Below, piece after piece: positions 3,068 through 42,029 of a stretch of 64,000 bases of DNA (position 1 is the stretch's first letter; every line of letters begins with the position of its first letter). The notes under the pieces were generated by a model. It was not told the origin of the DNA. It saw only the letters and a list, made by a program, of their open reading frames with translations, and made no database searches. The DNA lies in assembly GCF_020520425.1 (NCBI RefSeq), contig NC_079489.1, forward strand, positions 18,996,001 through 19,060,000. Reading direction: 5' to 3'. This stretch comes from Spinacia oleracea (taxonomy: Eukaryota > Streptophyta > Magnoliopsida > Caryophyllales > Amaranthaceae). The position numbers and the translations under genes are program-made.

Positions 3068-5867
3068 TCAGCAAAATTTCCAATGATTATTGCAGTTAAC
3101 ACAAGTTACAAAAGTTGTCATAGGTTCATCAGCACTCCGAGTTTGCAGCTGGTGGTATGTGGTCTTGCGCTGACCACATCTACCACATCTAAACTGGTCA
3201 GTTGTGGCCTTTGGTGCACCCATCCGCTCACATTCAAATAGTGCCTTTTTTTCAATCTTCTGGTTCTCTATTCGTCTTTGCTCACTCGCCATTTCTTCAG
3301 GTGTCAAGTTGACAATCCTTTCAGGCTTTATATCCCCTAAAAGGACTTTCCTGCGAAAATCTGGGTTCTTGTCATCCTTGATGTTAAACATAATGCTTCT
3401 GTATTTAAACTTGTGAGCACCAGTGGAACGGCCCCACTTATCAAACATAACGGACTCTACCGATACAGCCACTCGAACCGGGTCACAAGCATCAACATCT
3501 CCTTTAATGCTTTCGTGTGCCTCGTTACAAACTTTGGATAGAGCCTCTAAAAGAAGCTCTCGCACCTTATCACGTGTTGCATCACCAGACTTCAACATTG
3601 AAGGCAACTTCGGGGGAGCATTAGCAACTGGTTTATTTGCACTGGAGCTCGGTTTCACTTGATTTGCTGTTCTCTCAACCTTTACAGGTTCCTCTGAAAT
3701 CAAACTTTCAGCCTTTACTGCATTACCATTTCCAAACTTCCTTTCCACAGGACCTTGTTCGGTCTTAGCAAGCTTTCGTGGTCTGGGTGAAACACCTTCT
3801 TCAACTTTCTCGACTTTCCCATTTCCTCCCCATGTACTCTTTTCAGCCTTGACTGGAATTGCTTTGGTGGTGCTGTCAGCATTTATAGGGACAACTTTCA
3901 CTGAATTATTACCAACTTCACCATTTTTTTTCTGTGCTGTTTCCTGAAGTATTATGTTTTTCCATATCTCAATCAAATCAGCTGCAAAACTCTGAATCTT
4001 CCTTCTAGGATGTTTCGTAAGATGCCGTAGCCGCTTTCCAACCTGATGATTAAGTGCACATCGACTCGATCAGTTCAAATTACAAAAATAAAATAAAAGA
4101 TACAGATATCCCTAATATAAAATATTAAAAGCGACTTTGAATGTGAAGTAAAATTCGAACAAAGAAGTCTTTATGCAGCTCATAGACAAGCTAATCTACA
4201 TATGCTGTATTTTGAGAAGGCTGCATGCATATACAGTGGTGACAGAACACTATGATAATATTTCAAGTCTTCTGCCTCTATTATACAAATTCAGATCCTT
4301 AAGATGGAAAGCTTTGCAAGCAAGTTCTAAACTTGCAAAATAACTTCATAACTGATACCTGCTGATTTTCTCTCTCATTTCACTCACTTTCTTCTTCTCC
4401 CTTAACTTTTCCCCTTTAATTTTGATATTAATTACAGCTTTTGAAAATTTAAACCGATTCGATGGTAATTTAAGATTCGATTAGTATTTGTTGGAAATGA
4501 GATTCATACTAAGGAATCTAAAGGCATTCGACTTCCTTGTGCGTTTTAACTTTAGTTGGTAAATTTAAAATTCCGGTTAAGCAGCTAAACAGCAGACTGG
4601 ACTATGGAATCCAATTGATGAGAAACATTTTGTAGACAATGGTCCCTTCCATTTCCTTATAATACGTTTATCCTAAAAAAATATACAATATAATCTTTCT
4701 CCCCCTACCCCCTTCCTTTATTTTGCTCCCTCCATAAAACTAATACCAACATAGTCTAAGAAATTGGTGAAACATCTGATGAAACATAACAAAGGCACTT
4801 TTCGCAATTTAGCAGCAACTCTGCAGCACAACCACCCAACATGACCATCAGCTCAACTATTCAGCATGATTTTAACAAAAGAAAGAAACGGGAAATCCAT
4901 CCTTGTTTTCAAAGAAAGATGTGCCGATGAGAGTCCAACGACCTTTCACAATGATCTCCATCCACATTCTTCCCAATCAACTACCATTCCCAAATGACAT
5001 GTTGCAACAAAAAGTATGCAATTTCAATCTGACTTCTACTGAATTATTCAATTCATAGATGGAAACTTGAAAAGCACCAGACCACAATATTTGTTGAGAG
5101 ATAGCTGTTCTAGTATACCAACTGTCTATCTAGGTTATCCTACGCTGGCACTAATTATCTGCTCAAAATTCAGATAATTAGTCAACATCTATCTGTTACC
5201 ATATCCTAACTGATAATTAAATTCCAAAACTCACATTATGAGAAAATTACAAAAGTGCCATGGAGTTCATAGATTGGCTTTATGCGACTCCCATTATTCT
5301 CCTTCACTATCCGAAAACAGAAAACATTAAAACAATCCCTTCAAAAGACAATGTTTCATCCAATACTGGAAACTTTGCATCAGAAACCAAGACAGAATAG
5401 AAGTTAACCAGTAGCTAATTTCGGGTTACCCAATAAGCCAATAAGTTAATTTGTCTGTTCTCTAGTTGTCTAATGTTAAAGTTAAGTTCCCAAAGCTGAC
5501 ACGTTCTTAATTAAGAATTAGGCTCGGATTCTCGATTGATTACAAGAAAAATGCTAACAGGATAATTGTCAGTGAGAAAAAGGGAGTACAAATTTTGACA
5601 ACACTTGGGAACTACATACTCCCTATATATGAATTGATGAAAGATAATATTGTTACTAAAAATCAATGAAACAGAAGGAACAAAAAGAATAGAATTCGAA
5701 CAAACCTGAGTTGAAACAAGAATCTGATAATTGACAGGGAAATCCTTAAGCACTTTCAAGGCTTCAAGGCACAGACTTTCCTCATTGGTGGAGCTGACGT
5801 CTTCAGCTGCTGCTGCATCTGCCGCCTTCTTGGCGGCCTCAAACAATTCCACCAACTCACTCTCCAT
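3068..5867 (-). CDS. TFIIS: Transcription elongation factor TFIIS
   Basis: Two coding exons: 5867-5706 (54 codons) and 4042-3068 (325 codons including stop), joined by GT-AG splicing across a 1.66-kb intron. The product is 378 aa, the size I recall for Arabidopsis TFIIS. TFIIS binds arrested RNA polymerase II and stimulates cleavage of the nascent RNA so that elongation can resume; it acts in the nucleus. Visible parts are an N-terminal TFS2N/LW bundle (about residues 1-100, starting MESELVELFEAAKKAADA), a charged Lys/Glu/Pro-rich linker, the Pol II-binding central domain (about 205-325), and the C-terminal zinc ribbon with CGRC and CVNC pairs. The zinc ribbon has the catalytic loop RSADEP, with the Asp-Glu pair intact. 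The ATG at 5867 is preferred over an upstream in-frame ATG because it gives the conserved family N-terminus and the upstream part looks like UTR. Confidence 0.96.
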
Positions 5868-6680
5868 TCTCCTGATCACCGTATTCCACTCGCTACCACT
5901 CCCCTCTGTTATCCGGTTTCTTCTCCTTTTAATTACAACCTCACCAAAATTTCTCAGATTCTTCCTCAAAACCCAACAACTGCAAACAGCAATATACAAT
6001 CATAAATATTCATATTCCCATTGAATATTCTCAATCAAACCAAAAGATTAATATTTTTTTTCATCAAATGTTCATCATTATTGAGTCGTTGACACAAAAT
6101 CATACACGAAAAAAAAAAAAAAAAAAAAAAAAACCTTCAACATTAACGTATATATTTATCAAGCGTACGCAATGCAGAAACCCTAATTTGGGAATCGCTA
6201 AACTTCGTCAACAACAATAAAATTGATAACCCTAATCAGCAACCAAAAAAAGCTCCATATTAGCCAAACTAATACATGATTTCATAAGAATTAGCTCTCA
6301 AAATCAACCAAAAACACCGTAAATCATTGAAACACCAAAGTAATGAATCAAACCAAAAAATCGAAAGAACATAATATAACATTGGTTGAAAAAATTGAAG
6401 AGCTTGAAAGGGATTGTTACTATAGAAAGAATAAGAAAAGAACCTTGAGAAAATTGAAGAAATCAGAAAATTCGAGAGAGAAACACAAACAGTAGACGAA
6501 GATGAAGATGAGGGTGAGGGTGAGTTTTGCGCAGCTATTCTGTTTTTTTGAGCTTCAAACCGAAGACAAGACAAACCAAGCTAGTTTTATCCTATTTCTA
6601 TTCGTAGTCCAATTCTTAGGTTTTGCAAACCGTTTTTGTTACCTAATTCCGTAGTTAGTTTGTGTGAGGGTTAAATTAGT
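5868..6680 (-). promoter_or_regulatory. TFIIS 5' UTR, probable UTR intron and promoter
   Basis: Upstream of the TFIIS start, a donor (AAG|GT at 6444/6443) and an acceptor (TTTGCAG, AG at 5981-5980) would define a 5'-UTR intron of about 460 bp. First-intron placement in the leader is common in plant housekeeping genes. A run of more than 20 A lies at about 6110-6133. The likely transcription start is around 6560-6590, about 100 bp from the MULE end at 6681, so the proximal promoter is short and borders the transposon. Confidence 0.5.
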
Positions 6681-6760
6681 GGAGCGCTAAAAGCCGCCCT
6701 ACATTACTCAAAACCGCCCTAATATTTCTCACTTTTTATCCTTAATACCCTTATTTAATT
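6681..6760 (+). repeat. MULE left terminal inverted repeat
   Basis: About 75-80 bp inverted relative to 17145-17223. The core, from CCGCCCTACATTACTC onward, is nearly identical; the outer 20 bp and the inner AT-rich part are diverged. In MuDR-type elements such repeats bind the transposase and hold the promoter of the adjacent gene. Here the left repeat lies upstream of the PMD gene. Confidence 0.88.
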
Positions 6761-6929
6761 CAACTTCCCAAATCTGATTTTCAACTTTCACCTCATCCAT
6801 CTTGGAGAGAGAAAATCCCACAACCACCACAAACGTAAAACCACTCAACGCCGGCAGTCAGAGGGCGGGGCCGCAACACCTTTGGCTGGTAAGGTGGTCG
6901 GAAAACCAGTGGCGCTTCTTGCCGGCCGA

Positions 6930-7060
6930 CCACCACCGTCTCCGTCGTCCGTCGTTCCCCTTCCCTGTTGCTCGATCTTCTTTCTTGTTGCTCGATCTTC
7001 TTCGCTGCAACCCGTCGTCCATCGTTCCCCTTTCCTGTTGCTCGATCTTCTTCTCGCAGC
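6930..7060 (+). repeat. Short direct repeats in the PMD gene leader
   Basis: The phrase GTTGCTCGATCTTCTT occurs three times (about 6968, 6986 and 7038), and a GTCGTCCATCGTTCCCC-like phrase precedes two of these. The stretch is CT-rich and lies between the left TIR and the start codon at 7202, so it would be the transcribed leader. Overlapping open frames here are low-complexity shadows. Confidence 0.6.
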
Positions 7061-7699
7061 AGCACGTCCCAGCCACCAAGGTCGTTGTTTCCGGCCAAGT
7101 TTCCGACGAACAACCCCCACCTTGTTGAACAACCCAGCGACGACGGTAGCTCACGTCCGACTCTCCTTTGGATCTAGCAGCAGCAGCACCGGCGGAATCT
7201 TATGACGGGTCGTCGAAACCATCCTGCGAAGCCAAGAAAAGAACCACCGGCGACGAGAGCCAAGCAACCGGCGGCGAAGGGAGTTAAAATACCGGCGAGG
7301 AAGAGCAAAGCACAACCTGTAAGTCTGATTTTAAGTCTGATTTTAAGTCGATTTTAGAACCTATTGTAAGTCTGATTTTTTCTGGATTCGTGAACCTATT
7401 GTTCAATTAGATGATGCGTTTTTTGTTCAATTAGATGCTGCGAATTTGTTGGGTTTTTATGTATTGCAATTTGCTAGAATTGATGTACTGTTGTTTTTTG
7501 ATTTTCAATTTTCTGTTTTGGGATGATATTTGTGGTTTATTGTTTGTTCAATTAGTTCGATTTTAACGACAAAGTGCAAATCACATTGGGTTGAATTGTG
7601 TGGTTTATTTTTTAAATTTGTTTGTTGAATTTGAAGTTTTGTTGTTGAATGTTAATGTTGTTGTGGATGTGCGTACAGAAATCGAATTTGGGTTTAGGA

Positions 7700-7945
7700 A
7701 ACATAGACTTATGCGAATTGAGCCTATTCCACGGTATAGACTTATGTAAATTAAGCCTCATCCATGGATGGAGCCTAAAATGCATAAGTCTCTTTTTTTT
7801 TTTTTAACAAATTAAATAGTCATGGACTTATGCGATTTTAGCTTCGTCCATGGTTTAGACTTATGCAGATTAAGCTCAAGCCATGGAACGAGCTTAAATT
7901 TCATAAGTCCATTCCATGGACGGAGCCTAAAATGCATAAGTCTAC
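7700..7945. repeat. Left subterminal array of CCATGG-centred palindromes
   Basis: About seven units of a 35-40 bp motif containing ACTTATG, then TAAGCTC-like sequence, then CCATGG, alternating with their reverse complements ending CATAAGTC. Paired units form palindromes centred on CCATGG. The array lies inside the first intron of the PMD gene. A matching, longer array lies near the other end of the MULE at 16283-16885. Confidence 0.85.
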
Positions 7946-8704
7946 AACTTTTTCTAAGAAATAAAATCGACACCTTTTTTCCCATGGTCTTGACTATAAA
8001 ATTAATTTTAATTATTATGTTTATTAATTATAATTATTACGTTTTAAACTTGTATTGTTAATTAATTATAAACATAATCTTAAAAGATGACTATATATAT
8101 TAAATAATTTATTTAAATGAAATAAAAATGAAAAAACTAGCATAAATAGTAGAAATAATGTTTTTTTTTTTTTTTACTATAAGCACTCTTGTACCTTGAA
8201 AAAACTAGCGTAAATAGTAGAAAAAATGTTAAAAATAATCATATTAATAAAAAATACCTAAGTTTGAGTTTACTAAATATTAGGCATTTGTTATGAATAG
8301 TGAAATAATATTCAAAATTGATAGTGTTATTAGGCTCCATTGATGCTAATAAAAAAAATACTTGTTATGAGAATAAGAAAAAATATACTCATGATTATAA
8401 ATTATTTTGATGGTAATTAATTATTGATTTTCAAATATATAGCAAAAAGTTGGGGAATCTTCCTCCGTGTATCTCACTAGCGATGTTGACTCTGGTGCTC
8501 GACATACTCGAGATCGATGTATTGATGCTTCAGTTAGGAGAGAGAAGCAGGTTGCACGAGTTATGCAACCGGTGCATGAGAGTGAGTCTTCTCGTCCGTT
8601 TGATGATGAGGATGTGGATCATGGCTTTGAGCAGGAGCTGGAGGCCGAGTTGGCTTTGGAGGATGAGGATGTTAATGTGGCTAGGGAGGATGTTAATGTG
8701 GCTA

Positions 8705-11631
8705 TGTAATCCCCCGTAATTTTATACATTGTTTATATTTTTTTACGTATATTTAATATATTTAAGTACAATTTGCGGATTTTAGAAATGAATATGTAAT
8801 TAAAATATAATTATTTTATCTCATTTTGAATACTTTAATGATTTACGAAATCAAAATGTATTTTCGAATTTTACGTTAAAACGAATTCGAATTACGAAAA
8901 TCGATTAAATTTAGAAAACGATCCTATCCGATTTTGGATTCGAATCCTAAAACTAAATTCCTAAGTCTAGCCCAATTGAATAAAGCCCAATATTATAAAC
9001 CCATAACCCCATACTTCTACTCCATGTAAAACACAAAACACCAAACCCCTCTATTCCTACTTCACGTAAAAACCAAAAAGGGCAAAACCCATCTCTCTCC
9101 TTTCCTGCTTCCTCTTCCTCCCTCTGCCCAGCCGCCGACCACCACGAGCACGCCACCAAGGCCGCCAGACCACCTCGCCGGTAAGCCACCGCTTCATCCC
9201 CTTCTCCTTCTTTCTTTCTCTTCCGTTCTCCTTTTTGTGTGACTCTCTTTCTCACTCGTTCTTTGTTGCCCGAGCCAACAGCCACGTCGCTGACCACCAG
9301 CTCTCACCACCACCTTGCTCGCGCAGCCCCCGCGTCGCCACCCAGCCTGCGCCGCCGCTGCCTTGTCCCTGCTCGCCGGTAGTTCTCTTTCCTCCTCCCT
9401 TTCTCTTTTCTCTTTTATTCTTTTGTTGTGGTTGTGTATTCAACTGATTGTGGCTGACCACCACTCGTTCGCGCAGCCACCGCAAGTAGCACCACCGTGT
9501 GCCGCCGTCTCTCAGCCCTGCCGCAAGCCACCTCTGTCCGCCAGCCAACTCTCTCTCCTCCTTCTTGAATTGGTTACTTTCTTAAACCCTAAGTAACTAA
9601 TTATTTTAAATTAAAGTTTGTTAATTTAGATTATGTTCTTAAATTAAATTTATAATTTTTATGGTAAATATGATTTTCAGATTTGATGTTGAGATTAAAA
9701 ACGAATTAATTTTCAGTTTTGATTAATTAAAATTAAGATTAGGGCTTAATCATAATTTATTAACTTGAATTATGTTTTCTTGAATTAAAGTTATGGGTTT
9801 TGTGATTTAAATTATAAATTTGAGATTATATGGATTTTATAATAAAGTTATTAATTTTCAGATTATCTAATTACATTGAAATATTGATTTTTGATTATTT
9901 AAAGTATGAAATTCAAGGTTTTTATGATTATTAATCATGATGGGTTGAGTATGGATCATTGAATTGGTTGTGTTGAGATACTAGGAACGTAGATTGACCA
10001 TGGTGAAGCTTTTAAATGAAATTATATTGCTGAAAATTTAAAGTACGATGTTTGCAAAAGTTTTCAACGAATTTCAATCACTAATTCAATAATCATGATT
10101 CTAGAAAATCAAATGTTTAAGTTTTGATATTGGGGAAAGTTCTAAATATGTTTAGGATGCATTTAGAATGCTTTCTTATGGTTGTCAATGATTAGGAATT
10201 TATTGGGATTATTTGTTGGTTGTTTTAGGCGGAGAATTCTCTTTAGGCGACTTTTGAAAGTGTTAAAGTGGCCTATCAGTTTGTTTACACAAGGTACGTA
10301 CATACCTGTGTGCTTGGAATGTGTGCTAATTGTTGAAACCATGTTGAATCTTGTTGTTGAACTTGGTTATGTTGATATTATGGACGAACTGGGTTATATT
10401 GAATGTGCATGTTTAATACTGTTGGACAAACTTATTGAACTTATTTTGCACTATGAGAACTGTAACATGTTAGTATGGATGATTGATACAAACATGTTGG
10501 TTGGGAACACTAGATTATTCTATATGATTGGTTTGGATCGATTGGTTGTTGTTCCCTTTCTATCTTTTCACTACTTTATGAGGGCGGAGGACCTTGTTTA
10601 GTAAGTTGAAACTTTATGCCCATATACAGGGTTGCTCATGGTTAAAGGAAAGGTTGGATAAATTGGAATGAGTCTTGATTGATGCTTTTATGATCACTTA
10701 CTTAATTCCAAGATAAAAACAGTTGTGAACAAATGTGAATTGTATGTCTTATGTAATGGTTGAGTCATAACGGAATCTCAATTTGTAAATCATGTAAAGT
10801 GAAACCGAATAGCAATAGCTTTAGACTGTGCACGTCTGAAGTGACGGACAAACAGGAGTTGGGGTTCATGGTGGTAGCCCATGGCCTTTTCTGGGACCGG
10901 ATTGATCACCGTGTCCTATTTTTATTTAAACGTTCCTCGATATCGCAGGTCACTGAGGTTACGGAGTCGCGCCCGTACCTCGTCTTCCTTAGTGAAGACT
11001 TCTGGATGGTCAACTCGGTCCATTGTCTATTTCAACTAAAATAATATTATGGTTATTAAGCCTAGCTTAGTCTAGTCAAGTATAGTCGTCAAATTATTAT
11101 GTTTTGTCTGTCCTTACTTATATTTATTAGTATCATGATAGGGTTGTTGGTTTGATAGTATCATGCTAGGATTGTTGTTGTTTTAGTATGTAGTACTCAG
11201 CTTTGCTGATTACGTGCTTTGTTTGTGTGTGTTGATCATGGCTATGCCTTATTGATCCTGTGATGACCCATCTTTGGTGAGCAGTCTCTAAGGATCAATA
11301 AGCGTCGCCCATCTACAGGTTTGAAGATGATGCATCATTGGGATCGGGATTAGAGAGCTTGTAGTTCTATTCGTTTAATTAAGTGATTTAATTTGTTAAC
11401 TTGGATTTGAAATTTGTCGTACTATTCGTATTTCCTTAATTCAGTTAATTGGTTTGGACCTAATATGTAATAGATTATTTATGAACCTAAAAGTTAGTTT
11501 TATGTTTTCCGCTGCAAAATTCTGAATAAGCCGTAACGTTTTCACACGGGCGATAATACTTTGATAATTCCCTACAGTTATATTTAAAAAGAGGTTATTT
11601 TAGAAAATGGGAATTGTTGGGGTGTTACAGG
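8705..11631. mobile_element. Solo LTR (Ty3/gypsy-like), fossil
   Basis: A 2,927-bp block starts TGTAATCCCCCG and ends GGGGTGTTACA, the TG...CA boundaries of an LTR. It is flanked by a perfect 5-bp duplication GGCTA (8700-8704 and 11632-11636). No gag or pol sequence lies inside, so it is a lone LTR left by recombination between the two LTRs of a larger element. The terminal motifs and great length resemble plant Ty3/gypsy LTRs, but the lineage is not established. It sits in exon 2 of the PMD gene and is therefore younger than that gene's arrival in the MULE. Confidence 0.9.
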
Positions 11632-13445
11632 CTAGGGATGATGTTAATGTGGCTAGGGATGATGTGGCTAGTGACGATGATTTTGTACCAGATGTTGTTT
11701 CGATTATGAAGGGTGAAGGAGGGAAGTTTGTTAGATCTGAGTCGAGCACTGCGAGGATGAGTAAACGACAGAAGCAATTGGCAAATGAGTCTTGGATAGT
11801 TAGGTCTCATATCTCGGGTGGCCCGGTTGATGGAAGCGTCATTCCTAGCTTTGGGGGGCATGTCGCCCGACAGATTTGGGATGGGGAAGAGCGAAAGGTG
11901 TTGTTGTGCCAAAATAGAAGTCAGGCTTGTTCGACACTTAACTACTGGAGAGAGTCAGAGGAGTCACAGGAGTTGAAGCGACGCGTAGATGCGACTGGAT
12001 TAGCCCACCTACCATATTGCATGTTTGCACACATCGATATGCCTTTGATTTCTGCGTTCGTTGAACGTTGGCAGCCTGACACGAACACTTTTCACATGTC
12101 GTTTGGGGAGATGACTATTATGTTGCATGATGTATGGCATATCCTTCGCATTCCAGTTGATGGGCGATTGATTTCTGCGCAAAGTGACTCCGTGCAGTTA
12201 AAGGTTGATATGATTGAGCTACTTGGAGTTAGTGTGGAAGATATGAAGTCTCAGTCTCACTGGCGTGGTGGAGGTGTTGCCATTGATTCCATAGTCGATT
12301 ATTGTCGTGATAGTCAGCGCTCCGTTGAGACGAGTGTGGTTGGTTGGATGTTGTTGATGCTTGGTACATCATTGTTTGTTGACAAGAGTGGTAGTAGACT
12401 GAGACCAGCGAGCATACTTGAGCTTAAGGATGGTGGTGTAGAGAGTATTGCTGAGTATTCGTGGGGTTCCGCGACCCTATGCTATCTTTATCACCAGCTT
12501 GGAGTGGCTAGTCGCGGTGGAGCTCAGGGCATCGCCGGATGTTTGACGCTTCTGCAAGCATGGATATATGAGTATTTCCCTACTTTTCGGCCACACACTT
12601 CTCGACTTACATGTGAGCCTGGTAGAGCTCGTGCCGTCATGTGGAGCATCAGAAATGAGGGCAAGAGTTTAGTTCGAACAGTCCTTTCGTAGGTCCATAG
12701 ATCGGTTGACATCTGCAGAGGTAAATAATTTATTTTCATATGTATTACGTTTGCAACTAATTGCAATATAACTTATGATTTTGATTTTCAATTAATATTG
12801 TAACTATAGGTGACTTGGTTGCCTTACGGTCCTGATCCTGCATCGACTGTTCCGAGGACTACATTTTGTGGTTGGCTTCGATATCGTGATATTATTAAGC
12901 CATATACGCCGGACCGTGTTTTACGTCAGTTAGGGTATGTCCAGGTCATTCCATCCCCTATTTTGACACCAGAGTTTGCATATAGGCCGATAGAGAGCCA
13001 TTTGTATGAGGTTCGCTTTTCCATTGCCTCCACTGAGTCGGCTTGGCAGATGTTCCCGAGAGGATTCAGGCTATTTTTAGCCGAGTTTCAGATAGCGGAG
13101 TTTGATCCATCCACATGTTCCTCTGACTACCTTCTTTGGTTAGTTCGGTATTCGCATCCTGGTGTAGCTAACGTGGATCATGCAGGTGCATTTCCGGATC
13201 GGACAAATGCACCATATGTGAGTGTCTTTATATTTATTTAAGTATTTGAACACATATATAGGAAAGTTTTTATGTTATTTGATATTGCACTAACATATTA
13301 TTTGATATTGCAGTGGGTGGAGAGGCTATTTAGGGCTATACAGCCTTTGTTGGATGCTAGAGACGTCATGCCGTCTGAGGAGTCTAGAGCAGCTGTGGAT
13401 GATGTTGAGCAGATCATCTATGATTGGAACATGTTTGCTAAATGA

Positions 13446-13743
13446 TGTATTTCATGTTTAGTTACTTTTTCTTATTTGGACTTTTAGATGTTCGATTATG
13501 TTATTTTCATTTGGATTATGTGTAGTTACTTTTTCTTATGTGGACTTTGATTTCATGTTTAGACACTTAGATATTATTCGTTTATGTTTTTTTTTTCATT
13601 TGGACTTTTATATATTGTGTGTGGGCTTTGATTCATGTTTAGACACTTTGATTTCATTTGGATATTATTCGTAGCAATATACGCAATTAAAAAAAGAAAA
13701 AGAGTTGATGATATAACACTCAATAAAAGTACAATGTCTTCAA
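13446..13743. other. Intergenic gap between convergent MULE genes
   Basis: About 300 bp, T-rich, between the PMD stop (13445) and the stop of the OTU frame (13744, opposite strand). Short phrases such as TTCATGTTTAGACACTT and CATTTGGATTATT are repeated. It presumably holds both 3' ends. Confidence 0.6.
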
Positions 13744-14355
13744 TTACACCAAAGTCTCCAAACGCTGCCATTCTGCTATCCGATGTTGAAATATTTGCTC
13801 CCAACCAATGACACTTGGCTCTCGAACCATAAACCACAAGTCGGCTAAAGGAGGAATAGGACAACCAGGTGAAAGATCCAATCGAATGAAATAGTTATAC
13901 TCTATTAGATGGAGAATAAAAATTTCTCTGCTAGGTTGTGTCACGTTGCACTCAGCATCCCAAGGCAAAATTGTCATACATGGATACAAGGAACCGCCTT
14001 GCACTCCTAACAAAATCACCGCACAGTTCCAGAATTGAGCAATAGGGAACAAGTCTTCCATCACTTCCATATAATGATCTGATGTGCAATGCCCTCCGGG
14101 CCATTTGATACGTCTCATAGCTTCGTCGACACCACCATGGTGAATATGTTGATACTTCCATCTATTGGCCCCTACCTCATTCGCAATTATCTTCCTCGCC
14201 TCCACATATTTATCTTGATCACCTAGGAAAAAATCAGCAAGACAACGAAAACCACAATTTCCATCACCCATTACATCGATCCAATCTTCTACAAAATCCA
14301 CAATAATTCCCGGGATTCTGTCTAGGTAGCGAAACTCCGATATGTCCCTTTGAGG
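13744..14355 (-). pseudogene. OTU-type cysteine protease domain downstream of the MULE transposase
   Basis: About 185-205 aa of OTU fold. The N-terminal catalytic signature DVMGDGNCGFRCLA is present with the Asp and the nucleophile Cys, then a helical stretch, and near the end REIFILHLIEYNYFIRL, which corresponds to the strand that normally carries the catalytic His (usually N-H-F/Y). Here that position reads Tyr (NYF), so catalysis is doubtful. OTU enzymes cleave ubiquitin chains. The frame is open upstream of its first ATG (14301) with residues like PQRDISEFRYLD, which matches the linker of known plant MULE transposase-OTU fusions. It is one frame away from the transposase, so I read this as the broken C-terminal half of one fused gene rather than a separate gene. 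Confidence 0.82.
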
Positions 14356-16952
14356 ACCATCTGCAGACGAGTATTTGGCCTACCTCTTGTTGACATATTA
14401 GGTTCGGGTTGAATGTAACCGGCCTGATCTGGGTGTAGATAGTTATGCATCATTCGGGACATGTGGCGTATCACTGCAGGATCGCTAGAAGACACTTCAT
14501 CGACAAGAGACTGGAAAAACTGAGTATCCTGTGCGCAGGGATCTATGTCGGCCAACTCAATTATGTGATCTCCATCATTGATCTTAAGTGTCCTCCAAAA
14601 TGAATGAATCTGTTGCCGAGCGAAATATGTGCCTGAGTGAATTGCATCGAAAATCTGGCACGCACAAGGAAGACCATGTGTAGTCCTATACGCACATCCA
14701 CAACGTACATGAACCTCATGACTTAACGCCTTCATCCGTGTTTCCTCCTTCACCAAAAGGTTTAAACAGTAGTGGGACGCATGGCCACTCAAATGCTGGA
14801 ACGGAAGTCGGGTCGACATCTGACCATGAGTACGCATCGACGCCTCAAGGGTGTTTCTAATCTCTGTGAGTTGTGAGTTGATCGTTGCATTGACCTTCCC
14901 CCACACGGTGTCAAAAGACCCATTAGCACATGACAACCAATTCTTCATCATCGAATGTGCACTCTCTACTCTACAATTGTTGATGTTGCCAAAGTGAAGC
15001 ACATTATTTGTCCATGCTAAGACAAATTTTTCCGCATGGGGTAACCATGTACCATTCAAATACTCAATTACCTTAGGAAAAGCCCGCCAGGAATCCTGCA
15101 TGTTCAACACAGCTAGATCATACTCAACACTAGTTGGAGCCTCCATTATTCTCTTCCATTTTCCATTCTTGAATCTCTCACCCATGATTTTATTTCCACA
15201 TATATTTCCCACAGCCGCCTCTACATCCTTGTTGATATGCCACGAACAAAGTAAGTGTTTGGAGCGAGGAAAGATTTCGCGAATAGGTCTCATAAGACCT
15301 AACTCACGATCTGTCACAATTGCTGTTGGATGTACCTCATTACCAAGCAACAACCTTAGTTTATCTAACACCCACCCGTAGCTTTCAGCAGTCTCGTCCT
15401 TCATGAATGCATATGCAATGAGAAAATTCTTGTTACACGGTGTAACCCCACAAATTTCAAGGAATGGCATCTTGTATATATTCGTCTTGTACGTAGAATC
15501 CATGCCAATGACCCATGGATATGTGCGTAACAATTTCACCGATGTAGGGTGTGCCATGAATGCGTGTGTCACGACATGAGCCTCCTCCCTAATGTAGTGC
15601 AAGTAATCACTCTCTTTAGCAAGATGAAGAAATTGACTTATACTATCTCTTCCTTCTGCATCATTCCTCCTCATCCGATCTCTAAAATTGTAGATGTGTC
15701 TTCTATTGGGGTTCTCCTCAGGGAATTGTTCTTGGACAGCCGCCAATATGACATTTGGCCTTGCTTGAGCGGAAGACATATCACGAACAAGTTGCTTTGC
15801 GCCTAGACTAAGGCCGCTCATCTGCCGATTGCCCTCTCGATATGTAATTAATTCATGGTTGTGAATACCATATTGTTCAGGACCCAAAACAATATTCCAA
15901 CCTTCACCATCTTTGCATGGTGCCACCTTAATCAAAAACTTGCAACCACATGCTTGAGTTTTCGTGTTTGGTCGTTCCGCAGTTTCCAAATTTCTTCCTT
16001 TGCCTCTATTTCTTTCACCGCGGTTACATCTCAAGTACAATTCTCCTCGTTTCTATGAGGACTTCACAAGCTTAAAACCATTGCTAATAGCAATGTTTCT
16101 AGCCCACTCAACAGCAGCATCATCACTCGAAAATATTTCAGAAGTTACGAATTTTGGATTATAATTAATACCATCGCTTCCAAAATCTAGTAACGGAACC
16201 TGCCCATTTAAAAAAAAAAAAAACTTTAAACAAAGTAATTCTTATAATCAATATATAAGAAAAATACTAATTTTATTTTTATGACACAAACTTATGCAGT
16301 TTAAGTTTATGCCATGGTAGGGACTTATGCATTTTAAGCTCAACCATGGTGTAGACTTATGCAGTTTAAGCTCCTGCCATGGTATGAGCTTAAAACACAT
16401 AAGTCTGTCCCATGGTACAAACTTAAAATGCATAAGTCTGTACCATGGTCGGAGCTAGAATTGCATAAGTTTATGAATTGTTTTAAGTACACAAATTTTA
16501 AAAAAAATCATGTGAATTAACAGACTTATGTATCGTAAGCCCACACCATGGTGTAGACTTATGCATTGTAAGCCCCAGCCATGGTACGAGCTTAAAATTC
16601 ATAAGTCTGTACCATGGTACAAACTTAAAATGCATAAGTCACTAATGTTTTTTTCGGAAAAATTTAACCAAATTAAACAACAAATAAAAAACTTAAAATT
16701 TAACGGGCTTATGAATTTCTAGTTCCATCCATGGTATAGACTTATGAAGTTTTAGCTCCGTCCATGGTTGGAGCTAGAATTGCATAAGTCTGTCCCATAG
16801 TTGGAGCTAGAATTGCATAAGTCTGTACCATGGTACAGACTTATAAGTCTGTACCATGGTCGGAGCTAGAATTGCATAAGTCCATTAAATTTTTTTCCGG
16901 AAAAAAAAAATACCTCTTGTGAATTTGAATTTACTCCGTTAGTCTCGACCAT
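14322..16952 (-). pseudogene. MULE transposase (FAR1-like, SWIM zinc finger)
   Basis: A short first exon (16952-16914, MVETNGVNSNSQE) is spliced over an intron of 714 bp (holding the right palindrome array) to an exon starting at 16199. Domains in order are an N-terminal FAR1/WRKY-GCM1-like zinc domain (ACGCKFLIKV ... GIHNHEL), the MULE DDE core with first Asp in VIGMDSTYKTN and second Asp in AIVTDRELGL, the LLCSWHINKD motif, and a C-terminal SWIM-like finger (VRCGCAYRTTHGLPCACQI). In the SWIM finger, the usual final His is Cys. There is an in-frame TAG at 16055-16053 (after FKLVKSS), and near 14340-14370 the frame switches into the OTU domain. The transposase cuts and pastes the element by binding its TIRs. 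With a stop and a frameshift the copy is probably inactive, although most of the sequence is open and so decay is recent. Confidence 0.9.
16283..16885. repeat. Right subterminal array of CCATGG-centred palindromes
   Basis: About sixteen ACTTATG/CATAAGT motifs, spaced about 30-45 bp, interleaved with CCATGG and TAAGCTC/GAGCTTA blocks in both orientations. The units are the same as in the left array at 7700-7945. The array lies within the intron between transposase exons 1 and 2. Candidate roles are transposase binding sites or a replication/silencing signal; neither is shown here. Confidence 0.85.
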
Positions 16953-16964
16953 GTAAAAGTTGTT

Positions 16965-17100
16965 TCACCGGTGGTGGTGCTCCGGCAGGAGGTGGTGCTC
17001 CGGCGGCGGCGGTGGTGCTCCGGTGGCGGCGATGGTGCTCCGGTGGCGGCGCTCCGGCAGAGGTGGTCCGGCGGTGGTGCTCCGGCAGTGATGGTAATGG
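16965..17100 (-). repeat. GGTGGTGCTCCGG tandem repeat in transposase leader
   Basis: At least six GC-rich units of about 13-20 bp built on GGTGGTGCTCCGG. On the minus strand they fall between the right TIR and the transposase start codon at 16952, so they would be in the 5' leader. They contrast strongly with the AT-rich surroundings. Confidence 0.7.
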
Positions 17101-17144
17101 TAAATGTTAATGTTAAAAATGGTAATGGTAAATGTTAAAAATAA

Positions 17145-17223
17145 AGGGGTAAATAAAGAGGGTTATATAGGTAAAATATTAGGGCGGTTTTGAGTAATGT
17201 GGGGCGGTAAATAGTAAGCCCCG
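17145..17223 (-). repeat. MULE right terminal inverted repeat
   Basis: Inverted copy of the left terminus: GGGCGGTTTTGAGTAATGTG reads inward-out as its complement. It lies just upstream of the transposase leader and would supply that gene's promoter by analogy with MuDR. Confidence 0.88.
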
Positions 17224-17411
17224 TAAATTATCAAACTATCAAAGGTTTGGTTCTAGCCCGTGCCCGTGGCGACCCAGTTGTGTCGTAAGTCGTTGCTCAT
17301 AGCGACCACTCTCGATATCCCGACTCGCCTAGAGTGGTGATGGTTCTCTAAGCACTTTCTCATGGCTTAGCACATTTTTTTCATTATAATGGTACATTAT
17401 TTATAAGTAAG

Positions 17412-37176: not shown

Positions 37177-37582
37177 TGTTAGTGATCACCTTCTTGGTTG
37201 ATCACAAACTGAAAGTTGCTAAGCAACTTAACAGAAAATGCAGAGAGAAAGAGAGAAAGAAAGAGAGAGAGATTATTTTCTTATTGAATGAATAATGATT
37301 ACAGCATAATTGGCCTTATATACAATGATTAGGTGACGTGTTGGAGCCAATCAATGTGCTCCAAACTAACACATCAGCAAGCTCTAACTAACACTCTCTA
37401 TAACAGAAACAGAAGCTAACAACTACACTAACAGAATTCAGTTACACTGAACATTCTAGAAGGCTGTGATGCAGTTAGCTGTTGCTGCTTGAGGTGAGCT
37501 TGTGCACGAATATTGCTTGCTGCATTGCTGTAAGGTTGAGTTGATCATATCAGCATTGAGATCATGAGTGTGTACACCAACA
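37177..37582 (-). repeat. Copia 3' LTR
   Basis: 406 bp, TG...CA. It is the downstream LTR relative to the element's minus-strand genes and is next to the polypurine tract. Confidence 0.95.
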
Positions 37583-40500
37583 CCCCCCCTCAAACTTGGG
37601 ATGGGTGAAACATGAGTCATACCAAGTTTGGAAGAAAGAGTTCTGTGTTGATGACTAGGGAGAATCTTAGTGAATATGTCAGCTAACTGGTGCTGAGTAG
37701 GGAGATAGCTGAGTTGTAACAGACCTTCAAGAACTTTATCCCTTGTAAAGTGGCAATCAACCTCAATATGCTTGGTTCTTTCATGGAAAATAGGGTTAGT
37801 GGCAATGTGAAGAGCAGATTGATTGTCACAATTAAGTTGAACAGGTTGTAAACCAGTGACCCCCAATTCCTCTAGAAGTCTCACAATCCAAGAAACTTCA
37901 CTAGCTGCTTGTGACATAGCTCTATACTTAGCTTCTGAAGAGCTTTTAGAGATAGTTGTTTGCTTCTTGGATTTCCAGCTAATAGGAGAATTGCCTAGCA
38001 AGAGAATATATCCAGTTACTGATCTTCTAGTTGAAGGGCAAGCAGCCCAATCAGAATCAGAGAAAGCTTGGAGTGTGAGTTTATCAGTAGCTCTAAGCAA
38101 AATCCCTTGACCAGCAGTGTGATTAACATACCTCAAGGTATGAGTGAGAGCAGCAATGTGATCAATCCTGGGTGAATGCATGAATTGACTAAGTGATTGA
38201 ACAGCAAAGGCCAAGTCAGGTCTTGTGTTGGTGAGGAAATTTAGCTTGCCTACATAGCATCTATACAAGTCAGGATTTGCATAAAGATCACCCTCAGGAG
38301 AAAGCTTTAGATTCAAAGGGAAAGGTGTGACTGCTGGTTTAGAAAGATCCAGTTCACAATCATGGAGCATTTCCTTAGTATACTTCTTCTGAGTAAGGAT
38401 GTAACCTTCTGTTGTGTGACAGATTTCAATCCCTAGGAAGAAGTTAAGTAATCCCAAGTCTTTGATGCTAAATGTCTGATGTAAATGAGTCTTTAGTGCA
38501 GTAATAACAGATTCATTTGATCTTGTGATGATAATATCATCAACATAAACAGCCACCACTGTAATGTCAGTAAGATCATGTTTGATGAAAAGAGAATAGT
38601 CATTCTTTGACTGTGTAAACCCTTGAGATTTCAACTCAGCTAAAAGTCTGGCAAACCACTGCCTAGATGCTTGTTTGAGACCATAAAGGGACTTAGTAAG
38701 CTTGCACACATGTCCAACAGGAGCATTGACACCTTCAGGAACTTTCATGTAAACTTCCTCATCAAGATTTCCATGTAAAAAGGCATTGTTAATATCCAGT
38801 TGGAACAATTTCCAGTTTCTGCTTGCAGCAATAGAAATCAGACACCTAACTGTGGACATTTTCACAACTGGGGAGAATGTTTCATGGTAATCAATACCAT
38901 ATTTTTGAGTGAAACCCTTGGCCACTAATCTGGCTTTGTACCTTTCAATAGAACCATCAGCATTTTTCTTAATTCTGTAAACCCATTTGCAGCCAATTGC
39001 TTTCTTGCCTTTAGGAAGAACCACAAAATCCCATGTGTGATTTTTGTTTAGAGCTGTAATCTCCTTTTCCATGGCTGTAACCCAGTTATGATCACCAGCA
39101 GCTTCAGAATAAGAGGTGGGCTCAATCAAGTCCATATTTGCTGCAATTAGGACCTTTTGTTTGTCAGGTAACTGGTCAAAAGCAACAAGGTTGCACCAGT
39201 GCCTAACTGGTTTTGAACAAATAAAATCTTGATAGTGAGATGGCTGTTTTGGTACTCTAGTGGACCTTCTTGGAGGAGGAGCACAAGGTTGAGTGAGATC
39301 TGAAGAAGTGTGAACAGTTTCTGGGGAAGAAGGAGATGGTATGGAAGAAGGAGAATTGTGAGCAGGAGGTGAAGAAGTTAAAGGAGTAGAAATGGAGGAG
39401 ATATGAGAAGAGATATGAGATTCTCCATTTTGAGCAATAGAAAGAGAAGAGGAATCTGAAATATCAGTAACAATTGGAAGGAAAAATTTGGTTTTGTAAG
39501 TGGAATAGGGGGAAGATGAAAAATGATATGGAAAGTGTTTTTCATGAAAAACAACATCCCTGGATGTAACAAGCTTATGAGTAGCAAGGTTAAGAACCTT
39601 GTATGCTTTCTGATCACAAGGATATCCTATGAAGACACATGGATCAGCTCTGGGATCAAATTTTGATCTCTGTGTCTTTGCAGTAGTAATGTAGCAAAGA
39701 CATCCAAACACCCTTAGATGAGACAAGTCTGGTTTTGTACCAAATAGCTTTTCATAAGGAGTGCAGAAATTGATACTTTTCAAGGGCATTCTGTTAATGA
39801 GATAAGTAGCAACAAGAATACATTCACTCCAGTATTTATCAGGGAGATTGGATTGAAATGAGAGGGCTCTAGCTGTTTCAAGTATGTGTTTGTGTTTTCT
39901 CTCAACAACCCCATTTTGTTGAGGTGTATAGCTACAACTTTTCTGGTTTAGAATACCCCTCGATTGAAACAACTCTTCCATGCTACCTTCTGTCAAATCA
40001 GGTGCATTATCTGATCTAACATGTTTAACCTTTAAGCTAAACTGATTTTCAACATAAATAAGAAATTGAGTCATGATTTTCAAAGAATCTGTTTTATTTC
40101 TCATAAGATGAGTCCAAGTCATCCTTGTGTGATCATCTACAATTGTAAGAAACTGATTACAATGAGAAGAATCAGGAATAGAGTAAGGGCCCCATACATC
40201 AATGTGTATTAATTCAAAAGGCCTAGTTGTTTTGATGCTACTATTAGAGAAAGGAAACCTAGCCTGCTTAGCTAAAGGGCATATCTGACAGAAAGATTCA
40301 GCTAAGCATCCTGGTACATCAACTCCTTGTAATCCCTTTATTTTGCCAAATGACATATGTCCTAACCTAAGATGCCAGAGTTTGGCTTCTTGGACAGCAG
40401 CTGACCCAACAGTAGAGAGAGCATACTTATTCTTGCTAGACACCAGTAAATCTTCACTTAAACTGTACAATCCCTTCTCCAATCTACCAAGCAGAATAAG

Positions 40501-40764
40501 CTTGTTCTTGGAAAGGTCCTGAAGTAAAAATTCATTAGTTGTGAATGAAACAGAATAACCATCATCACAACAAAGTTTGGATACTGATATCAAATTGAAC
40601 TGAAACTCAGGAATATGCAGCACATCTTTAAGTGTAATATTTCCACCTAAATGAATGACACCTTTGTGCTTAACTGTCAATTCTGAACCATCAGGAATAG
40701 TAATAGTATGCTGAGCATCATTCACAGATTCAAAAGAACTGAATAATGACAGATCTGAACACAT
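37456..40764 (-). CDS. Copia pol (integrase, reverse transcriptase, RNase H)
   Basis: A long open frame of about 1,100 codons within the Copia fossil. Visible parts are the GAG-pre-integrase zinc motif (LWHLRLGHMS ... CQIC), the integrase core (FELIHIDVWGP, HVRSDNAPDL, QNGVVERKH), the reverse transcriptase (WVYRIKKNADGSIERYKARL, VAVYVDDIIITRS) and the RNase H region (GYILLLGNSPISWKSKKQTT, EAKYRAMS). The frame runs through the polypurine tract into the 3' LTR. It encodes the replication enzymes of the element, not a host function. Confidence 0.95.
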   Translation of the reverse strand: MCSDLSLFSSFESVNDAQHTITIPDGSELTVKHKGVIHLGGNITLKDVLHIPEFQFNLISVSKLCCDDGYSVSFTTNEFLLQDLSKNKLILLGRLEKGLYSLSEDLLVSSKNKYALSTVGSAAVQEAKLWHLRLGHMSFGKIKGLQGVDVPGCLAESFCQICPLAKQARFPFSNSSIKTTRPFELIHIDVWGPYSIPDSSHCNQFLTIVDDHTRMTWTHLMRNKTDSLKIMTQFLIYVENQFSLKVKHVRSDNAPDLTEGSMEELFQSRGILNQKSCSYTPQQNGVVERKHKHILETARALSFQSNLPDKYWSECILVATYLINRMPLKSINFCTPYEKLFGTKPDLSHLRVFGCLCYITTAKTQRSKFDPRADPCVFIGYPCDQKAYKVLNLATHKLVTSRDVVFHEKHFPYHFSSSPYSTYKTKFFLPIVTDISDSSSLSIAQNGESHISSHISSISTPLTSSPPAHNSPSSIPSPSSPETVHTSSDLTQPCAPPPRRSTRVPKQPSHYQDFICSKPVRHWCNLVAFDQLPDKQKVLIAANMDLIEPTSYSEAAGDHNWVTAMEKEITALNKNHTWDFVVLPKGKKAIGCKWVYRIKKNADGSIERYKARLVAKGFTQKYGIDYHETFSPVVKMSTVRCLISIAASRNWKLFQLDINNAFLHGNLDEEVYMKVPEGVNAPVGHVCKLTKSLYGLKQASRQWFARLLAELKSQGFTQSKNDYSLFIKHDLTDITVVAVYVDDIIITRSNESVITALKTHLHQTFSIKDLGLLNFFLGIEICHTTEGYILTQKKYTKEMLHDCELDLSKPAVTPFPLNLKLSPEGDLYANPDLYRCYVGKLNFLTNTRPDLAFAVQSLSQFMHSPRIDHIAALTHTLRYVNHTAGQGILLRATDKLTLQAFSDSDWAACPSTRRSVTGYILLLGNSPISWKSKKQTTISKSSSEAKYRAMSQAASEVSWIVRLLEELGVTGLQPVQLNCDNQSALHIATNPIFHERTKHIEVDCHFTRDKVLEGLLQLSYLPTQHQLADIFTKILPSHQHRTLSSKLGMTHVSPIPSLRGGVGVHTHDLNADMINSTLQQCSKQYSCTSSPQAATANCITAF

Positions 40765-40850
40765 ATGATCACTAGCACCACTGTCTAAAATCCATTTTTT
40801 CTTGAGATTGGAAAATAAACAGAAAGTACCTTTGTGCTGAGAAGTTGTTG

Positions 40851-41936
40851 CTAATCCAAGTGAGTGAGAGCTGGAATTCTCAACTTGATTAGAAACCTGA
40901 TTATGGGGTATTGCATCAATTGACTGTATTGATCTTCAGTGAAAGTAGCATGAACCATTCCTGAATCTGTTTCATTCTGATTTTCTTTGTTGAAGCTTTC
41001 ATCAAGCTGTGCTGCTGCTGCAATCCTCTTTCCTTTATTTTTGAAATCTTTTGGATAGCCATGTAGCTTCCAGCATTTGTCAACAGTGTGATTTCTCATT
41101 TTGCAATGATCACAAAAGAAATTATTCCTGGTTGAGGTTGTAATCTGAGAGCCAGAATTAGAGCTGTATTGAGGCTTATAGAACTTGTTGTCAAACCTTT
41201 TGACACTAAATGCAGCAGATTCTGTTGCTTGCAATTGATTTCTGACAGTGTGCAACTCTTTCTGCTGCTCTTCTTGGAGTAAGAGTCCATAAGCCTTAGA
41301 TATTGTAGGTAAGGGATTCATCATGAGAATTGCACTTTTAGGATGCTCATATTTCTGGTTTAATTTCATCAAGAATTGTATCAATCTCTGATTCTGCTGA
41401 GTTTTCAGAAGTTGTTGTGTGAGATTACAATTACAACCAGTGCAAACACACGTAGGTAGGGGTTCTAATCCATCTAGTTGGTCCCAAAATAGCTTGATTT
41501 TAGTGAAAAAACTAGCAATTCCTTCATCCTCTTCTTGTGTTAATTCACTCAACTGATGCTGTACAGAAAACAATTGAGGACCAGATTCTCTACAAAATCT
41601 GTCAGCCAATTCAAGCCAAATTGCTCTTGCTGTCTTGAGATACAAGACACTTCTTGCTATTTTAGGTTCAAGTGAAGCTAACATCCAAGAAATCACCAAA
41701 TCATTACATCTGCACCACAATCTGTAGTTTACAAAATTTATTGCTGGCTGATTTAGTGTTCCATCAACAAAACACAATTTGTTTCTTGCAGATAAAGCTA
41801 TCATCATAGATCGTTTCCAATCATTGAAAAATTGTCCCTCAAATTCAATATTCACCAATTTTGTAGCATTTAGATCACTGTTGCTCAGATAGTAAACAGA
41901 ACTAGGATTTTGAGATTGATCTGTTTGATCAGGCAT
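40851..41936 (-). CDS. Copia gag
   Basis: A 361-codon frame of the Copia fossil. It contains the copia gag domain (EFEGQFFNDWKRSMMIALSA, KLCFVDGTLNQP, AIWLELADRF) and a CCHC zinc knuckle (CDHCKMRNHTVDKCWKLHG). It packages element RNA. The start is just inside the primer-binding site and 5' LTR. Confidence 0.93.
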   Translation of the reverse strand: MPDQTDQSQNPSSVYYLSNSDLNATKLVNIEFEGQFFNDWKRSMMIALSARNKLCFVDGTLNQPAINFVNYRLWCRCNDLVISWMLASLEPKIARSVLYLKTARAIWLELADRFCRESGPQLFSVQHQLSELTQEEDEGIASFFTKIKLFWDQLDGLEPLPTCVCTGCNCNLTQQLLKTQQNQRLIQFLMKLNQKYEHPKSAILMMNPLPTISKAYGLLLQEEQQKELHTVRNQLQATESAAFSVKRFDNKFYKPQYSSNSGSQITTSTRNNFFCDHCKMRNHTVDKCWKLHGYPKDFKNKGKRIAAAAQLDESFNKENQNETDSGMVHATFTEDQYSQLMQYPIIRFLIKLRIPALTHLD

Positions 41937-42029
41937 TCTTGATTGATCTTTTTGAGTGTTTTGCTGATTGAATATGCAAAGAAGAAACGGATTATAGCAG
42001 GATCTGATTTAATCACTGCTCTGATACCA

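Follow-up and report, generated by a model that had tools for sequence, protein, structure and literature searches.

In the MuDR element of maize, a Mutator-like element (MULE), the transposase gene mudrA is convergent with a second gene, mudrB, and in Spm/En, of the CACTA superfamily, the element-encoded protein TnpA acts on many short subterminal sites in both orientations, with reported roles in transposition and demethylation. The present analysis concerns a MULE of spinach (Spinacia oleracea) that carries a transposase gene with an OTU-like exon and a plant mobile domain (PMD) gene, and lies within a 64,000-nucleotide stretch of contig NC_079489.1 (assembly GCF_020520425.1, positions 18,996,001 to 19,060,000; referred to as the window). 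In the VANDAL21 MULE of Arabidopsis, the accessory protein VANC21 binds to short tandemly repeated motifs of the element that encodes it, some of them in introns, and causes loss of methylation; related VANCs have other motifs (PMC5735166, PMC10398659). PMD and/or a domain of unknown function has been listed for half of the VANDAL members, an earlier hint of a link between PMD and VANDAL, and an antisense PMD has been tabulated for several MULE groups, including most members of the MUDR group, in a paper whose text does not spell out PMD (PMC6446971, Table 1). Capture of PMD by MULEs was described by Ikeda 2017, with speculation on anti-silencing (PMC5418596), and likewise in a review where PMD is termed a domain of unknown function (PMC8616336). 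The domain occurs in transposons as well as in silencing factors of the host.

The window element belongs to a family of MULEs with clear terminal inverted repeats (TIRs) which, in the reading that is considered probable if by no means assured, possess a VANC-like self-protection module: judging from a predicted fold and from the analogy with VANC21, the PMD protein would bind repeat arrays within the element and lift or block methylation with a family-specific effect. An original prediction made from the sequence of the window had pointed to this element as a poorly described combination. As the sources above indicate, the pairing of transposase and PMD was already tabulated for several plant MULE groups.

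Sister copies of the element fix an 8-bp target-site duplication (TSD), perfect in copies B–G and I, and a left end beginning GTGGAGC, shared with the same copies, and the element is therefore placed at 6679–17222 of the window (Table 1). In the window copy the TSD reads TTAAATTA on the left and GTAAATTA on the right (7/8 matching). The imperfect 9-bp duplication reported in the original prediction should thus be corrected to 8 bp, the 9-bp match having been 7/9, for which P is ~0.003 with the offset fixed and 0.04 when 25 offset pairs are allowed for. The matching TIRs were confirmed, with 34-bp cores that are identical at 33/34 positions and pair at E 1.8e-9 in a self-search of the window. 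So were the two convergent spliced genes starting next to the TIRs, namely a MULE transposase on the minus strand (PF10551, E 3.2e-25) and, starting behind the opposite TIR, a PMD gene on the plus strand (PF10536, E 1.9e-37, 129.7 bits in the window and 136.6 bits in copy L011 against a cut-off of 34.9). Pfam detects PMD alone in the accessory gene of both copies. The introns have GT–AG borders, which were read off the sequence and delimit a PMD gene of four exons and a first transposase exon of 13 codons. The MULE-type DDE transposase, the TIRs and a TSD within the 8–11 bp range place the element in the MULE superfamily, and the convergent second gene gives it the two-gene layout of MuDR. It differs from MuDR in having PMD in place of mudrB, an OTU-like C-terminal exon, a 34-bp TIR core and intron arrays. 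The plant mobile domain is shared with the host PMD-C proteins MAIN and MAIL1 and with the MULE-borne PMDs of Ikeda 2017; the latter are described as transposase fusions in several grasses and Amborella (PMC5418596), whereas the spinach PMD is a separate convergent gene.

The assembly (894.2 Mb in 242 contigs, with C1–C6 of 115–189 Mb) was searched with the PMD exon and the transposase, and the best candidates were scored, so that copy counts are lower bounds: 40 of 47 PMD-exon candidates, 40 of 76 transposase candidates, 40 of 524 array places and 117 of 4487 candidates in a PF10536 search. For the pairing count, transposase hits shorter than 700 bp were excluded and a convergent PMD was required within 20 kb, using PMD positions from the PMD exon search and five taken from the PF10536 genome search; two copies each split into two hits (C4:68901580 and C3:78797442) were counted once. 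A convergent PMD was found for at least 13 of the 18 transposase hits of the window family, and for 11/12 of the near-complete hits of 1.4 kb or more. A second family, S, with ~65% DNA identity to the window family, has a convergent PMD for at least 13 of its 15 transposase hits, and the same pair is present in a third, T (L048, L049), at 39–51% protein identity. Copies B and D, of 5.7 kb each, share one internal deletion but have differing TSDs, and deletion derivatives have therefore moved. It should also be noted that in copies B, D, E and F (L009, L011, L012, L014) PMD exon 1 is about 71–74% identical to that of the window copy and exon 2 is 97–100% identical; the left end and intron flanks of these copies, like their exon 1, belong to another lineage, as though the 5' module had been exchanged. 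The genome-wide PF10536 search, with 126 matches, also revealed a cluster of long stop-free PMD frames (G000:C4:141.7–143.7 Mb) and two groups of many copies each, whose PMD frames measure about 310 and 687 aa.

Both first introns of the window copy contain GAGCTTAAAATGCATAAGTC units between CCATGG centres, with seven in that of the PMD gene and 15 in that of the transposase gene. Outside the element, seven matches were detected at up to six mismatches, against 9.0 expected over the whole window. The units are arranged in head-to-head blocks (ffrr, for example), most steps being 32–33 bp, and arrays were present in both introns of 10/10 copies A–J. Windows on the PMD-intron array are 84–87% identical, against 45–51% for the flanks, in four of five comparisons, and 97% against 81% in the fifth (C–I). 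On the transposase side, with two flank windows per pair, the array is better conserved than its flanks in three of five pairs. The most conserved boxes are CCATGG and TAAGTC.

Related elements carry arrays of their own. In subfamily K, L, M and N (~78–89% DNA identity) the motif is altered, mostly with AGAAGTCT, and this in both introns of 4/4 copies. In family S, both ends of L029 and L030 carry units resembling CTGGCGCACAGAATTTGCGCCAGG, centred on CATG and repeated every 33 bp; in family T, both ends of L049 carry GGAATAGGG...CCCTATTCC units, centred on CCTAGG and repeated every ~36 bp. The S array was picked up by a fixed-threshold period scan in L030 alone, and the S and T arrays were otherwise obtained with a repeat finder and by reading the sequence. 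In L048 no PMD-side array was present in the stretch read, and the transposase-side array is interrupted by another insertion. Copy L031 has kept one terminal motif and an array, and no PMD was found in its 8 kb. Arrays were compared by the number of ten-mers, each with three or more G/C, that they have in common, against shuffles. The two introns of one element share 8–36 ten-mers, with shuffle maxima of 5–12 that each lie under the observed value; introns of families A, S and T share 0–7, and subfamilies A, H and L share 1–98 among themselves. Sharing is therefore high within an element and low between families, meaning that both ends change together and that the families differ. Family-specific tandem motifs in non-coding regions are also a feature of the VANDAL/VANC system.

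The predicted model of the PMD domain matches the fold of VANC21 crystallised on its target DNA (9lnj). A MULE transposase accompanied by an accessory protein of the same predicted fold would thus be common to the spinach element and VANDAL21, as are family-specific tandem motifs in non-coding regions including introns, which differ between related families, and a variable region with tandem repeats in the accessory protein (PMC5735166). Unlike VANDALs, which typically but not universally have no or degenerate TIRs, the window family has clear ones. Its accessory gene is also a PMD by sequence, with anti-silencing predicted from the comparison with VANC21, and its arrays are phased dyads of about 33–36 bp in the first introns of both genes.

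Binding of the arrays by PMD is suggested because a VANC-like predicted fold and family-specific motif arrays in non-coding DNA together make up the anatomy of VANC21; we also infer loss of methylation and a gain in transposition. In the proposed mechanism, one gene would provide a transposase fused to an OTU-like domain and the other a PMD protein with the predicted VANC21 fold. The latter would bind the dyad arrays, which lie close behind the TIRs in the first introns of both genes, and would remove or block DNA methylation there, with the result that both promoters could stay on and the element ends stay usable. As the motif of the arrays at both ends differs from family to family, the effect is expected to be specific to the family, and it may also reach short copies that retain an array. 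The possible anti-silencing role named in the original prediction gains a candidate structural basis from the predicted fold; the idea itself was already in print (PMC5418596).

The main rival explanation, which is judged unlikely, is that the arrays are subterminal sites for transposition itself, with the transposase, or PMD as a helper, pairing the two ends and silencing not being involved. The mudrB of MuDR, or Spm TnpA as an element protein acting on subterminal sites, would be a model for such a helper. The arrays are close to both ends, and short copies tend to keep one. A 27-base TIR word gave 217 genome places at up to three mismatches, against none for the reversed control. Among the 100 of these TIR ends that were listed, 21 pairs were found, of which two are full copies, and 14 of the 19 short pairs were fetched; 13 of these 14 TIR-to-TIR short copies (0.8–4.5 kb) carry an array, and 36 of the 40 scored array places lie at most 1.2 kb from one of the listed ends. 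Eight of the 13 array-bearing short copies are 0.82–0.89 kb long and consist of the ends, the first transposase exon and the array; these look alike and probably derive from one founder rather than from independent events. The mosquito MULE Muta1 (Aedes aegypti) likewise has subterminal tandem repeats and many short derivatives keeping variable repeat numbers; these are 12-bp repeats within the TIRs, and no PMD is mentioned in the available part of that account (PMC5225508). In addition, mudrB has been described as apparently required for integration (PMC6446971). However, the spinach arrays are intronic, lie 0.3–1.3 kb inside the ends and vary in unit number and block order, and the short copy L033 has an 8-bp TSD and no array, so that arrays are not strictly needed for movement. 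The resemblance of the predicted PMD model to an anti-silencing protein also argues against this explanation.

It is improbable that PMD instead mimics host MAIN/MAIL as a decoy blocking their silencing complex, the arrays having some other role as intronic hairpin RNA or enhancers. Host PMD proteins do act in silencing (PMC5418596), and the arrays fold very strongly as RNA (z of −11.3 and −12.5), but hairpin partner units are overall no more alike than non-partners and give no clear sign that pairing is conserved. On the transposase side of copy C partners scored 0.73 against 0.76 and 0.71; partners were highest in three of the eight introns tested, with C and H (PMD side) and H and I (transposase side) within 0.05 either way. 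An RNA hairpin as the reason for the arrays was rated low, as partner units were not clearly more alike. Family-specific motifs common to both ends better fit a DNA-binding partner, and the MULE PMD is just 20–21% identical to three genic-looking PMDs.

Selective constraint was estimated as the ratio of nonsynonymous to synonymous substitution (omega, Nei–Gojobori) between subfamilies in the pairs C–H, E–J, C–L and H–L, alongside wrong-frame controls. PMD exon 2 gave 0.36–0.45 (wrong-frame 0.82–1.36), PMD exon 3 0.25–0.45 in three pairs and 0.83 in E–J (wrong-frame 0.46–1.78), the transposase 0.17–0.31 (wrong-frame 0.98–1.71) and OTU 0.29–0.40 (wrong-frame 0.62–1.62). The comparison of PMD with family S was left out, the shared DNA being just 81 codons. 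Within subfamilies, PMD exon 2 omega was 0.74–0.98 in four of five pairs (C–E, H–J, K–L, L–M) and 2.22 in L–N (95% 1.26–6.14, dS 0.019), near-neutral values of the kind that decaying or dead copies give. The PMD is retained by selection as an accessory gene and is not a one-off capture, because many copies carry both genes and omega between subfamilies is well under 1. The original prediction had looked to just these two results for support, and its view of PMD as a co-opted accessory is upheld by recurrence and constraint. A functionless chance capture of a host gene, which the broken PMD of the window copy, the within-subfamily values and the frequent capture of gene fragments by MULEs might suggest, is rejected as extremely improbable, since the convergent PMD recurs in three families and is constrained between subfamilies.

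Returning to the proposal of VANC-type self-protection, several observations weigh against it. The fold match comes from one predicted model with a mean predicted local distance difference test (pLDDT) score of 57.7, residues 1–172 lying below 50, and with 9% identity to VANC21. Foldseek returned no match for it at E 0.001 or better and a loose superposition (template modelling scores 0.39/0.46, root-mean-square deviation 6.7), a search of the PDB with the PMD sequence profile at E up to 10 failed to retrieve VANC21, so that VANC is not recognised by sequence, and a shared fold by itself shows no function. In the host, the PMD proteins MAIN and MAIL1 act in favour of silencing rather than against it (PMC5418596). 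Five of the 18 transposase hits of the window family have no nearby PMD, PMD is less constrained than the transposase, and the exon 3 value for E–J is uninformative, as it exceeds one of its own wrong-frame controls (0.46). The transposase-side array does not rise above its flanks in two of five comparisons, the eight shared ten-mers of family S barely exceed their shuffle maxima (5 and 6), and L033 moved without an array.

A broader proposal is offered tentatively and as one that may well fail. Here PMD would be homologous to VANC as a fold that binds DNA sequence-specifically, TIR-bearing PMD-MULEs would each run an anti-silencing system of the VANC type, with the phased dyad arrays at the two ends co-evolving with the PMD protein, and MAIN/MAIL1 and the element anti-silencers would be opposed branches of one DNA-binding family. 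The literature searched, of which coverage was incomplete, gave no account of PMD-MULEs with phased dyad arrays or of PMD and VANC being linked by fold, and priority is not claimed.

The window copy itself is dead. A solo long terminal repeat (LTR) of 2,925 bp with TG/CA ends and a GGCTA TSD splits PMD exon 2; it is identified as such because the same sequence occurs elsewhere in the genome as same-strand pairs ~8 kb apart, 99% identical to the window LTR, and runs with three LTRs are also present (e.g., C1:128505526–128524561). The transposase has an in-frame stop at 16053–16055, the PMD a frameshift close to the end of exon 2, and ~0.4 kb is deleted at the transposase–OTU junction, removing most of an intron. 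At that junction copies C and E have an arginine-glycine tail and an intron whose splicing, with sites chosen by eye, would fuse OTU in frame. The original prediction of an intron structure and phase intact across all exons therefore does not hold for this copy; the LTR, the stop, frameshift and deletion, and the repeat arrays in both first introns were absent from it.

The OTU-like exon keeps a GDGNCGFR/PDGNCGFR motif, with the DGNC active-site Cys, in 6/6 aligned rows; the active-site His is replaced in the window copy, while sister copies extending over that region have it. Pfam returned no family for three OTU exons at E up to 5. A PDB profile search gave five best matches at E 0.03–0.07, of which three carry an OTU domain by name and the remaining two are entries for viral polymerases, which we take to be OTU domains as well; with the family S exon OTUD1 was matched at E 0.007. 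An AlphaFold model of the exon was not used (mean pLDDT 42.6).

The features of the element are listed in Table 1. A GC-rich minisatellite, CGGCGGTGGTGCTCC, lies at 16969–17095 in the transposase 5' leader, adjoining the right TIR. The element lies upstream of a minus-strand gene for the transcription elongation factor TFIIS (3071–5999), at a distance below 1 kb, with TFIIS_M and zinc ribbon found by Pfam in 3071–4069 and an exon-like open reading frame at 5514–5999 that by eye resembles a TFIIS N-terminus. MULE insertions commonly land just upstream of genes. Further along the window is a minus-strand Copia-type LTR retrotransposon pol frame of 1159 aa (37459–42008; RVT_2, rve, gag_pre-integrs), with a 385-aa frame adjoining.

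Table 1. Features of the spinach MULE, in window coordinates.
Feature	Position	Strand	Basis
Left TSD, TTAAATTA	6671..6678		Length from sister copies B–G, I
Left TIR, core 6694–6727	6679..6727	+	33/34 identical to right end
PMD exon 1, 39 codons, basic	7202..7318	+	ATG to GTAAGT donor; 72–97% identity in 9/9 copies B–J
PMD-side intron array, 7 units of GAGCTTAAAATGCATAAGTC, CCATGG centres, order ffrffrr, 32–33 bp steps inside blocks	7706..7942		Conservation island
PMD exon 2 part one, acidic N-terminal region with tandem repeats (21-bp repeat)	8443..8704	+	Sequence
Solo LTR nested in PMD exon 2	8705..11629	+	TSD GGCTA at 8700–8704 and 11630–11634
PMD exon 2 part two, plant mobile domain; frameshift near end in window copy	11635..12720	+	PF10536 E 1.9e-37
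PMD exon 3	12810..13217	+	PF10536 positions 271–345, 23.5 bits (below cut-off alone); AG/GT borders
PMD exon 4 with stop	13314..13445	+	Sequence; matches in sister copies, among them C, E, G and I
OTU-like exon of transposase gene; active-site Cys kept, His replaced in window copy	13744..14346	-	Alignment with sister copies
Main exon of transposase gene, with MULE DDE domain and a single in-frame stop; deletion in window copy removes its 3' end and most of the following intron	14368..16199	-	PF10551 E 3.2e-25
Transposase-side intron array, 15 units of GAGCTTAAAATGCATAAGTC motif, order fffrrrffrrffrrr	16289..16882		Motif scan
Transposase exon 1, 13 codons	16914..16952	-	ATG and GT donor; matched in sister and short copies
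Right TIR, core 17174–17207	17174..17222	-	Match to left end; sister copies
Right TSD, GTAAATTA	17223..17230		Sister copies

Should the proposal be true, a fold shared with VANC21 would give PMD a concrete biochemical role that can be tested, with the arrays as the DNA to use. Sequence-specific anti-silencing would then extend past the VANDALs to MULEs with clear TIRs, and the host MAIN/MAIL1 pathway would be linked to the element's own counter-measure. The family-specific arrays could also act as address tags for targeted demethylation.

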